Of a stretch of 33,215 nt of DNA, positions 1 to 2,886 are shown one piece after another. The notes under the pieces were generated by a model. The model searched no databases, had not been told where the DNA came from, and saw nothing but the letters and a program-made list of their open reading frames with translations. Each line of letters starts with the position of its first letter. Positions within the stretch are counted from its first letter, which is position 1. The position numbers were made by a program, and so were the translations under genes. Source of the DNA: Candidatus Nanopelagicales bacterium (GTDB lineage Bacteria > Actinomycetota > Actinomycetes > S36-B12 > UBA10799). Location: the NCBI GenBank assembly GCA_018003655.1, contig JAGNDY010000014.1, forward strand, positions 1-33,215, given 5' to 3'.

Positions 1-248
1 CCCCAGTCGTTTGCCCCCGGATTCCACGTACTGGGGATCGCTCCGTCAGTGAACTGGGTGGCAAGCCACCCTGCGGCAGCGTCGCCCGAGCTGATTGTGG
101 ACGTGGGAGCACTCGCGCGCGCGGTCGCCGCGCCGGTTGTCGGGGCTGACGCGGCCGCTGGCGGTGCAGCGAGCAGTCCGACAGCCAGAGTCGCGGACAA
201 GGCAGTCAAAGCCACCAAGCGGGAGGAGCGGGTGGTGAGGGCGCGCAT
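1..248 (-). CDS. Secreted protein, N-terminal part only; possible prenyltransferase/squalene-cyclase-repeat protein under B12 control
   Basis: This is the 5' end of a minus-strand gene that runs off the left edge; about 82 codons are visible. Translation from the ATG at 248 gives a basic start (MRALTTRSSR), a hydrophobic Ala/Leu-rich signal peptide with a likely cleavage near APPAAASA, a Ser/Thr/Ala-rich stretch, and then a mature start containing AAGWLATQFTDG. A GAGAGG ribosome-binding site lies 6 nt upstream. That motif resembles the first repeat of actinobacterial secreted prenyltransferase/squalene-oxidase-repeat (alpha/alpha-toroid) proteins, from memory. The gene follows a cobalamin riboswitch with terminator, so it is probably repressed when B12 is plentiful. 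A role in capturing or importing cobalamin is an inference; the domain that would prove it lies outside the window. Confidence 0.6.
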   Translation of the reverse strand, partial: MRALTTRSSRLVALTALSATLAVGLLAAPPAAASAPTTGAATARASAPTSTISSGDAAAGWLATQFTDGAIPSTWNPGANDW

Positions 249-301
249 GTAGTGCCTCTCGTATCAGCGAATCTACGGCGTCGCCGCACCTCTGATACGC
301 G

Positions 302-334
302 AAAACCCCTGCTGCGATTGCGCGCAGCGAGGGG
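302..334 (-). terminator. Intrinsic terminator of the B12 riboswitch
   Basis: On the minus strand CCCCT-C-GCTGCG, a CGCAAT loop, and CGCAGC-AGGGG form an 11-bp stem with a single bulged C, followed directly by TTTT. This is a standard Rho-independent terminator placed between the cobalamin aptamer and the coding start, so ligand control is probably by premature termination. Between the terminator and the start codon, arms at 260-267 and 292-299 form another 8-bp hairpin that ends just before the ribosome-binding site. Confidence 0.88.
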
Positions 335-366
335 TGAATTCGGACCAGCAAGTCCGGACTCCACCC
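332..366 (-). promoter_or_regulatory. Candidate antiterminator hairpin competing with the riboswitch terminator
   Basis: On the minus strand GGGTG (366-362) pairs with CACCC (336-332), and an inner GTCCGGAC-type stem uses 357-352 and 345-341. The 3' arm shares bases 332-334 with the 5' arm of the terminator (334-330), so the two hairpins cannot fully form together. This is the expected geometry for ligand-switched antitermination. It comes from pairing by eye; no folding energy was calculated. Confidence 0.6.
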
Positions 367-548
367 GTAGCCTCGACGGTTGAAGAGTCGCTGGCTCAGG
401 CGCGGTATTCCGACTTGCCGCCCCACTAGTGGGCCGACCTACGGTTGCGGGTCAGTGCCGGAATTCGACCGGCTTCCCCGCGCAAGAGCAATTGACCTAG
501 CGGCTGAAAGGTAGCATCCGGTCAATCGCAGCGTGGCCGGGTGCTACC
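335..548 (-). ncRNA. Cobalamin (B12) riboswitch aptamer
   Basis: Read on the minus strand, the leader contains the conserved cobalamin-riboswitch core. GGGGAAGCCGGT, then TCCGGCACTGACCCGCAACC (positions 479-442), matches the GGGAAnnnGGTG...CCGGnnCtGaCCCGCaACnGT consensus. It is followed by a B12-box-like segment AAGTCGGAATACCGCGCC (about 417-400). A 5' hairpin is made by GGTAGCA (510-516, plus strand) and its partner TGCTACC (542-548). Downstream lie a terminator hairpin and a competing hairpin, then the signal-peptide gene starting at 248. The aptamer boundaries are approximate. The promoter should lie in 549-607, between the riboswitch and the stop of the desaturase gene. Confidence 0.9.
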
Positions 549-607: not shown

Positions 608-1825
608 CTACGCGGCAGAATTCCCGGCTTCGATGGTGCTCTCGCCCGCCTCAAGGGTGTCGGCGACCGCCGCCGACTCACGGATTGCGGCCGCTTCGGC
701 GAGGCTTGAGCGCACCGCTTGGGCAGCCGGGCCACCGCGAAGCCAGCTGCGGATCCCACTGACGAAATCGTTGGGCACGGAGTAGATCGCGAGCTTGCGC
801 CAGACCTCGGCGCTTTGCTTGGACAGCCGCCCGCTGGTGTAGGGCAGTCCGTACTCCTCACACAACGCACGCACCTGCGGAGCTATTTCGGCGTAGTGGT
901 TGCTCGGGATGTCCGGGAACAGATGGTGCTCGATCTGGTGGCTCAGGTTCCCACTCATGATGTGGAACAGCGGGCTACCCTCGATGTTCGCCGAACCCTG
1001 GAGCTGCCGGATGTACCACTGTCCACGCGTCTCTCCCTCGATTTGCTCTTCGGTGAAGTACTCAACATCCTCTGGGAAGTGACCGCAGAAGATGATCACG
1101 TGTGTCCAGATGTTACGCATGACGTTGGCCGAAACGTTGGCAGTCAACGTCGTCGGAGCGCTGATTCCGGACAACAGCGGGAAGGCCACGTAGTCCTTGA
1201 TGACCTGCGGTTTGACCTTGCGCCACAGGCTCTTGAGCGCCGCCACCTTGTCCCGCTTGCCATCGTTTTGCGCGGCAACTTCCTGGTCAGCGTCATACAT
1301 GGCGATGCCGTATTCGAACATCAACATGATCACCACGTTGGTGATCAGTTGGAACGAATGGGACGGTTCCCACTCCTGGTCCTTGGAAACTCGCAGGCGA
1401 CCGTAGCCAACGTCCAGATCCTTGCCAATGACGTTGGTCCAGGTGTGGTGCATGACGTTGTGCGACTTCTTCCACTCCTCCGAGGAGATGGCGCTGTCCC
1501 ACTCCCACGTGGTGGAGTGAATTGCCGGGTCACGCATCCAATCCCACTGGCCGTGCATGATGTTGTGGCCAAGCTCCATGTTTTCCAGGATCTTCGATGT
1601 TCCCAACATCGCCGTACCGGCAAGCCAGGCGGGCGGGAGGATCGAGGCCATCAGGGTCGTCCGTGCCGCGATCTCAAGGCTCCGTTGAACCTTGATCATG
1701 CGCCGGATGTAGGCGGCATCCTCCTCGCCGAGGTTGTCCACGACGCCCGCACGCATGGCGTCGAGGCGGCGGCCGATCTCTTCGACTTGGCTGTCGCTGA
1801 GGTGAGCTGCTGTTTTGCTGTTCAT
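608..1825 (-). CDS. desA3: DesA3-like acyl-CoA fatty acid desaturase
   Basis: Membrane di-iron fatty acid desaturase of 405 aa. It has the three histidine boxes of the family: HNIMH (87-91), HNVMHH (122-127) and HQIEHH (296-301). A hydrophobic segment precedes the first box and others lie around 155-175 and 212-245. The family inserts a cis double bond into acyl chains using O2 and electrons from a reductase partner. The gene just upstream encodes that type of partner, as in mycobacterial desA3-Rv3230c, where the substrate is stearoyl-CoA (delta-9). The ATG at 1825 is chosen because AGGAG lies 6 nt upstream; the reading frame extends further, but that part lies inside the upstream gene. The start is 8 bases from the upstream stop, so the pair is translationally close. 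Substrate and position specificity are inferred from synteny. Confidence 0.9.
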   Translation of the reverse strand: MNSKTAAHLSDSQVEEIGRRLDAMRAGVVDNLGEEDAAYIRRMIKVQRSLEIAARTTLMASILPPAWLAGTAMLGTSKILENMELGHNIMHGQWDWMRDPAIHSTTWEWDSAISSEEWKKSHNVMHHTWTNVIGKDLDVGYGRLRVSKDQEWEPSHSFQLITNVVIMLMFEYGIAMYDADQEVAAQNDGKRDKVAALKSLWRKVKPQVIKDYVAFPLLSGISAPTTLTANVSANVMRNIWTHVIIFCGHFPEDVEYFTEEQIEGETRGQWYIRQLQGSANIEGSPLFHIMSGNLSHQIEHHLFPDIPSNHYAEIAPQVRALCEEYGLPYTSGRLSKQSAEVWRKLAIYSVPNDFVSGIRSWLRGGPAAQAVRSSLAEAAAIRESAAVADTLEAGESTIEAGNSAA

Positions 1826-1833
1826 GGGTTCTC

Positions 1834-2886
1834 CTAGATGTCGATGTGGACGTCGCCGAGCGGGGCGTTGATGCAAGTCTGGATGAGCTCGTTGGGTTCG
1901 CCGTGAGTCTGACCGGTTCGGATGTCGCGCACCTGGCCCTCGACGAGCGGGACGACGCAGCCGTGGCAAATTCCCATCCGGCAGCCGTGCGGCATCAGGA
2001 TTCCGGCGGCTTCGCCTGCCTCGAGCACGGTGGTATCGGCGCCTACTACCTGCTGCCTCGTGCTGCGTTCGAAAGTGACGTTGCCACCTTGACCAACCGT
2101 GGCGGCACGGACTGGAGTGAAGCGCTCGATGTTCAACTGCCTCGGGTCACCGCAACGATCCCAATGCTGCTGGGCTTGCTCAAGCAGTCCGGCCGGACCG
2201 CAGACCCAGACCGGCAACTCCTGCCAATCCGGCACCTGGTCGGTGATCTCCGCGAACGTCGGTCGTCCGGAGATGCTCGTGTATCGAACGTGCAGCTTGA
2301 GCCAAGGACTCAATGATGCAAGTTCACGAAGCTCCGCGCCAAAGATCTGGTCCGAGCGGCTGTGGTCAACAGTTACTAGCTCGACCAATGGTGGGTTCGG
2401 CTGGTTTGCCAGCGTGCGCAGCATCCCCATTATCGGGGTGATGCCACCACCCGCCGCGACCATGAGCAGTCGCTGCGGCTGCGCGGTTGGCAGATGGAAC
2501 TCGCCGCTCGGCTCGCCGATCCACAGCAGGTCGCCGACCTCAAGGTCGTTAACGAGGTAGTTCGAGACGACGCCGGCATCCACAGCCTTGACTGTGATGC
2601 AGAGATCCGCCGCCGCGCCGCCCGCTGGCGACGTGATCGAGTAGGTGCGCCAAGTGCGCACGCCGCGAACGTCCACCCCGATCGGCAGGTGCTGGCCCGC
2701 GAGGTGGGCTGGAAGGGGTCGGGCTGGACGCAACTGCAACGTTGCGGCGCCAGGAGCCTCATCGATGATCGAGATGACTCGGGCCGCCCGGCCGGAGCCG
2801 GACCACATTGGGTTGACGAGTTCGAGGAAGTCACTCGGCAACAGCGGAGTCGTCAGCCGTCGTGCCGCGTTAAGTATCCGGTTCAT
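1834..2886 (-). CDS. Flavin/2Fe-2S oxidoreductase, electron donor to the desaturase
   Basis: A 350-aa ferredoxin-reductase-type protein in the order FAD domain, NAD(P) domain, plant-type ferredoxin domain. RTYS (80-83) is the FAD-binding motif, AAGGGITP (144-151) is the nucleotide-binding loop, VCGP is near 228-231, and the C-terminal cluster ligands are C302, C307, C310 and C338 in the C-x4-C-x2-C...C pattern. It probably passes electrons from NADPH to the desaturase encoded directly downstream, as Rv3230c does for DesA3. It is the first gene of a two-gene operon with a repeat-rich promoter immediately upstream. The N-terminal 30 residues (LLPSDFLELVNPMWSG) are typical of this desaturase-linked subfamily, from memory. 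Confidence 0.9.
   Translation of the reverse strand: MNRILNAARRLTTPLLPSDFLELVNPMWSGSGRAARVISIIDEAPGAATLQLRPARPLPAHLAGQHLPIGVDVRGVRTWRTYSITSPAGGAAADLCITVKAVDAGVVSNYLVNDLEVGDLLWIGEPSGEFHLPTAQPQRLLMVAAGGGITPIMGMLRTLANQPNPPLVELVTVDHSRSDQIFGAELRELASLSPWLKLHVRYTSISGRPTFAEITDQVPDWQELPVWVCGPAGLLEQAQQHWDRCGDPRQLNIERFTPVRAATVGQGGNVTFERSTRQQVVGADTTVLEAGEAAGILMPHGCRMGICHGCVVPLVEGQVRDIRTGQTHGEPNELIQTCINAPLGDVHIDI

Follow-up and report, generated by a model that had tools for sequence, protein, structure and literature searches.

We propose that the gene at the left end of the window (the whole stretch of DNA analysed here, 33,215 nucleotides, from a genome of Ca. Nanopelagicales, an order of mostly freshwater actinobacteria) encodes one half of a B12-repressed system for scavenging cobalamin at the cell surface. 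A secreted alpha/alpha-toroid protein and a beta-grasp partner would enclose cobalamin and hand it on to an ECF transporter, a reading to which we give a probability of about 0.8. The computed support for it consists of the riboswitch, the orthology of the gene, its secretion-type N-terminus, the linkage to beta and ECF genes and the predicted folds in relatives, and the finding of B12-dependent enzymes without CbiC. That cobalamin is the ligand, that toroid and beta protein form a complex and that this complex hands over to EcfS is what we infer from these observations; the B12-dependent regulation and the likeness to a carrier would follow by analogy with known riboswitches and transcobalamin structures.

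The riboswitch leader and the truncated toroid gene

The features at this end of the window are, in the order in which they would be transcribed:

396..491, minus strand: cobalamin riboswitch aptamer (RF00174 match, covariance model and compensatory changes)
302..335, minus strand: terminator-like hairpin forming the expression platform, then UUUU (-21.1 kcal/mol, z -5.3)
260..299, minus strand: second strong hairpin, whose 3′ arm ends at the ribosome-binding site (-19.5 kcal/mol, z -3.1)
255..260, minus strand: probable ribosome-binding site GAGAGG (direct sequence reading)
1..248, minus strand: first 82 codons of a gene encoding a secreted alpha/alpha toroid, cut by the contig end (open reading frame and orthologue identity)
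147..248, minus strand: signal peptide spanning roughly residues 1-34 (assigned by eye from a basic start, a hydrophobic core and AAPPAAASA)
1..86, minus strand: start of the first toroid repeat (module B), GDAAAGWLATQFTDGAIPSTWNPGANDW (alignment to orthologues with module B before A)

The first-pass annotation had read a cobalamin aptamer core and a terminator ahead of a gene with a signal peptide, and each of these elements was borne out. In a search of 800 bases, the core of the Rfam Cobalamin family (RF00174) was matched at 478-404 (-) with 31.1 bits (E 5.4e-6), which just misses the gathering cut-off of 31.5, and the cut-off of RF01689 was passed by the riboswitches of four out of five relatives. 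A dedicated covariance model, R1, places the aptamer at 491-396 (-) with 81.6 bits, a score obtained with a model that includes the window sequence. Indeed, R1 was built from eight related leaders, one of them the window's and seven of the eight from toroid loci; the loci scanned with it were picked by protein alone. In the covariance alignment of these eight leaders, 8 of the 20 aptamer pairs carry double-sided, pair-preserving changes, and the window riboswitch combines a conserved core with covarying stems within the 5′ leader of a B12-related gene. The aptamer is compact, with a short P6 extension, and AdoCbl-II-like. The arms of the terminator-like hairpin (335-302 (-)) read CCCCUCGCUGCG...CGCAGCAGGGG-UUUU; the consensus scanner did not report it because this U tract is only four long. 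Just upstream of the riboswitch, at 608-2886 (-), we also noted a fatty-acid desaturase gene with a ferredoxin-reductase-like gene before it, in the same direction.

The toroid gene starts with an ATG at 248-246 (-) and stays open for 82 codons up to the contig end. As the window is the entire contig C14 and ends at base 1, the gene is unreadable beyond this point, and its continuation was not found elsewhere in the same genome (2.36 Mb, 96% complete). The encoded N-terminus, MRALTTRSSRLVALTALSATLAVGLLAAPPAAASA..., is a signal peptide by eye and is followed by AAAGWLATQFTDGAIPSTWNPGANDW. Two genomes of the same family (Ca. Nanopelagicales) carry full or longer orthologues that are 60% and 56% identical to the readable part (E 3.6e-13 and 3.2e-12), each with the same riboswitch upstream. 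These full-length orthologues give weak matches to prenyltransferase/squalene-cyclase toroids and fall outside the uncharacterised SCO2321 family (NF053823), with 93.3 and 98.6 bits against a cut-off of 300; they are its distant relatives. The alpha/alpha-toroid identity first proposed for the window protein is upheld by these orthologues and by the toroid fold modelled for a relative.

Partner genes and predicted folds

Two B12 riboswitches were detected in the window's genome, that of the toroid gene and another on contig C6, where it is followed by genes for a SCO2322 protein, EcfT (CbiQ), a double EcfA ATPase (EcfAA') and EcfS. The SCO2322 protein is a member of its family (NF040672), with 147 bits against a cut-off of 85. 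EcfT, two ATPase domains and an S component thus stand in one operon as an ECF group (PF02361, ABC_tran twice), the PF12822 match of EcfS lying just below its cut-off; this EcfS has no detectable sequence match to ECF-CbrT in the PDB set. Within the same genome, no convincing match to the canonical beta partner and none to the DUF4430 and SQHop_C profiles was obtained. The genome encodes MetH (methionine synthase) and methylmalonyl-CoA mutase, and a search for CbiC, an enzyme of de novo corrin synthesis, came back negative. This gene set is consistent with B12 auxotrophy and import of the cofactor, although CbiC is a single marker, sought in a 96%-complete assembly.

It had been suggested that an ECF-type cassette might lie to the left of the window. 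Such a cassette does accompany the toroid gene in related loci, but the one detected in this genome sits on contig C6, behind a separate riboswitch. In G009, the nearest relative, the toroid gene is followed by a beta gene (P0002) and then by dapA, with no ECF genes after it. The protein P0002 is secreted, ends in a C-terminal membrane helix and matches SCO2322 weakly. A further genome of the same family (G005) has the order riboswitch, beta, EcfT, EcfAA', EcfS, second riboswitch, toroid. This cluster (L177:497-6961) has two B12 riboswitches, one before the beta-ECF genes and one before the toroid gene, and the genome has an extra SCO2322 copy on contig C23. In G008 (locus L176, contig C227), a locus like that of G009 (TIGR03767 phosphoesterase, riboswitch, beta, dapA) has no toroid gene between riboswitch and beta gene.

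In a class-wide sample, a SCO2321-like match was found in 94 of 198 genomes, the weakest of which may be other toroid proteins, and the protein-similarity scan led to 80 named loci. In 82 of the 88 non-redundant toroid genes searched, a riboswitch precedes the first repeat by no more than 700 nt (median 260 nt); among the six others, two are at a contig end and one stands behind a riboswitch-beta pair. Downstream of the toroid gene, related loci usually encode a beta protein of the SCO2322 type, secreted and membrane-anchored, and an ECF transporter, and SCO2321 and SCO2322 have the same riboswitch-ECF setting in Streptomyces and others. Where enough downstream sequence is available, EcfT, EcfA and EcfS are all present in 45 of 48 loci of the type with toroid module A before B, and in 11 of 21 of the B-A type.

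Toroid and beta protein are encoded by two genes in nearly all loci. They are joined in one chain only in L120 (5872-7437), in the order toroid-beta as in intrinsic factor; the same operon contains a second, divergent toroid gene (L120:7483-8877). In two loci (L082:4829-5643 and L083:4933-5677), a riboswitch-controlled gene for a beta-only secreted protein, whose N-terminus contains a lipobox-like cysteine, shortly precedes a second riboswitch and the toroid gene. Three Acidimicrobiaceae toroids (L088, L094 and L103) have C-terminal tandem repeats, GYW-V--DGGIFSFGDA-F-GS, at residues about 390-655; these are propeller-like and possibly form a cell-wall or surface-binding part. One locus labelled Bifidobacterium breve (L149) clusters with Nanopelagicales loci in the toroid tree and is probably a misnamed lake MAG. 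The plasmid search gave only two matches, both weak and from Embleya.

Because the window protein is truncated, folds were modelled on relatives. AlphaFold models were built for the toroid and the beta protein of an Acidimicrobiaceae locus (L081), separately. The two were folded apart because a joint alignment of the fused L120 protein with separate beta rows, which we rejected, misplaced the beta rows. When the beta model (pLDDT 87) was compared with the PDB by Foldseek, B12 carriers (transcobalamin, haptocorrin or intrinsic factor) took ranks 1-16 and 19, and the bacterial structure 3u7z took ranks 17-18; the TM score of the model against the isolated human transcobalamin beta domain is 0.75. 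The toroid model (pLDDT 92) is an alpha/alpha toroid and matches such toroids in general; squalene-hopene cyclases lead the list, and transcobalamin chains appear from rank 15 on. With these cyclases as its best structural matches, the toroid by itself is no pointer to B12. A sequence-profile search of the PDB gave no transcobalamin link, which is visible only in the fold comparison, and Cobalamin_bind (PF01122) is matched by only 2 of 25 toroids, with a best E of 0.0093 that is not over the cut-off. The DUF4430 partner domain raised in the first reading stands as a fold, the modelled beta protein having the transcobalamin/DUF4430 fold, but not as a sequence match, since the beta partners gave none to Pfam DUF4430 (PF14478).

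Paired circular permutations

SCO2321-type toroids consist of half A followed by half B; the window's relatives and those of Acidimicrobiia have B followed by A. Indeed, the B profile matches the N-terminal part of the window's relatives (E 7e-21 and 3e-21), with module A after it. Alignment of the A-B and B-A toroid profiles covers 212 columns with a score of 390 as they stand, and 326 columns with a score of 554 once the halves are exchanged. The beta-grasp proteins show the same kind of difference: the halves of SCO2322 are ordered b2-b1, and those of the others b1-b2, as in transcobalamin. Here the profile alignment goes from 39 columns and a score of 96 as is to 102 columns and 179 after exchange. 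Among loci having both genes, A-B toroids occur with b2-b1 beta proteins in 60 of 60 cases and B-A toroids with b1-b2 proteins in 18 of 18, six loci being duplicated between collections. The window's genome mixes the types, with a B-A toroid (by orthology) and a b2-b1 SCO2322 protein in the ECF operon on contig C6.

A quick tree of the toroids placed the B-A forms of the window's family inside the A-B group, on a long branch, so that three switches would be needed. In a topology test, a tree with all B-A forms as one clade was not rejected (p-AU 0.76) and had a higher likelihood than the quick tree, and we therefore do not claim a second, independent permutation. A single switch is compatible with the tree. 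Since the permutations are matched and one switch could account for them, toroid and beta protein are suggested to fold or dock as one unit, with their joint termini mattering for the complex. Whether actinobacteria have a two-protein counterpart of the animal B12 carriers, with toroid and beta-grasp partner circularly permuted together, is in our judgement evenly balanced.

Proposed mechanism, alternatives and known systems

At low B12, the aptamer would be empty and the terminator-like hairpin unformed, transcription would pass and the secreted toroid would be produced; the SCO2322-ECF unit on contig C6 would likewise be turned on. The toroid would partner with a secreted, membrane-anchored beta-grasp protein, of the SCO2322 type or the unpermuted form, and the two would close around one cobalamin outside the cell, as transcobalamin and intrinsic factor do with their alpha and beta domains. 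Cobalamin would then be delivered to the putative B12 ECF transporter (EcfT, EcfA-A', EcfS), encoded here on another contig behind the genome's only other B12 riboswitch. High B12 would shut off both units.

The substrate could be something other than intact cobalamin, such as cobinamide, another corrinoid or cobalt. The CbiQ-type EcfT is annotated as cobalt transport, and the characterised ECF-CbrT also imports cobinamide (PMC5997447). Yet among the PDB matches the beta fold is specific to B12 carriers, and the genome encodes B12-dependent enzymes; with CbiC not found, free cobalt would be of no help in making B12. We consider a corrinoid- or cobalt-related surface system unlikely. It is less probable still that the window gene is a remnant, either decaying or solitary, and has lost its role alongside the ECF system of its genome, even if the toroid gene is split from the ECF operon, 7 of the 11 family genomes (several of them incomplete) show no toroid and G008 keeps riboswitch, beta gene and dapA with no toroid between riboswitch and beta gene. 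Indeed, the reading frame is open, signal peptide and riboswitch are intact, and the two loci make up the whole detected B12-riboswitch regulon of a genome that is 96% complete, with the remainder in an assembly gap.

Finally, the toroid might belong to the squalene-cyclase/prenyltransferase superfamily as an enzyme acting outside the cell, with an expression that is merely B12-responsive. Squalene-hopene cyclases are its best PDB matches in sequence as well as in structure, and Pfam SQHop_cyclase_C matches 19 of 25 toroids. Nonetheless, the class II cyclase motif D-x-D-D was found in none of the 25 aligned B-A toroids, all of which have D-x-N-(S/A/Q) at this site, and in none of the 22 rows of alignment A1. 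The signal peptides, the constant riboswitch and the two partners of the toroid, a transcobalamin-like beta protein and an ECF transporter, also argue against an enzyme, which we regard as the most improbable of these explanations.

If the cobalamin-scavenging reading is true, SCO2321 and SCO2322, two uncharacterised families that are widespread in actinobacteria, gain a function, and the actinobacteria abundant in freshwater a likely route of B12 uptake; B12 auxotrophy was predicted in the related acI-B clade by one study (PMC5574706). Actinobacteria would also join the bacteria that have relatives of intrinsic factor and transcobalamin, and they would offer one of the rare examples in which circular permutation affected two partner proteins in parallel.

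SCO2321 (NF053823) and SCO2322 (NF040672), both function-unassigned, are homologous to toroid and beta protein; SCO2321 differs in its A-B order from the window's B-A relatives, which score 93-99 bits against its cut-off of 300. Our search, which left most subscription journals outside, found no paper on the function of either family. Gut Bacteroides have surface B12-capture lipoproteins that are unrelated to the toroid and beta proteins and serve an outer-membrane TonB route. There too, extracellular B12 capture feeds an uptake system (PMC6143338). ECF-CbrT of Lactobacillus is an ECF transporter shown to import cobalamin, as proposed here, but no extracellular carrier pair is mentioned in the accessible part of that paper (PMC5997447).

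Closer to our proposal are the fusions of a transcobalamin-like beta-grasp domain with a toroid that Burroughs et al. 2007 (PMC1796856) reported from low-GC Gram-positives; CbiO/CbiQ are encoded next to them, and a role in B12 scavenging was proposed. The predicted role, the toroid and beta-grasp domains and the operons with ECF-type ATPase and CbiQ are alike; in the available portion of the paper, circular permutation and riboswitch coupling are not mentioned, and the taxa given for the SLBB/transcobalamin-like clade are low-GC Gram-positives, planctomycetes and euryarchaea, with actinobacteria not among them. The general idea is already known from Firmicutes, and the split, permuted actinobacterial pair appears undescribed.

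Transcobalamin, intrinsic factor and haptocorrin (PF01122 and PF14478) are likewise secreted and combine an alpha/alpha toroid with a beta-grasp domain of the same fold, their beta halves being ordered b1-b2 as in the B-A type and their toroid-beta fusion as in L120. Unlike them, the actinobacterial system is bacterial, riboswitch-controlled and made of two separate proteins in nearly all loci, with a beta protein that has no Pfam-level match and is anchored by a C-terminal membrane helix.
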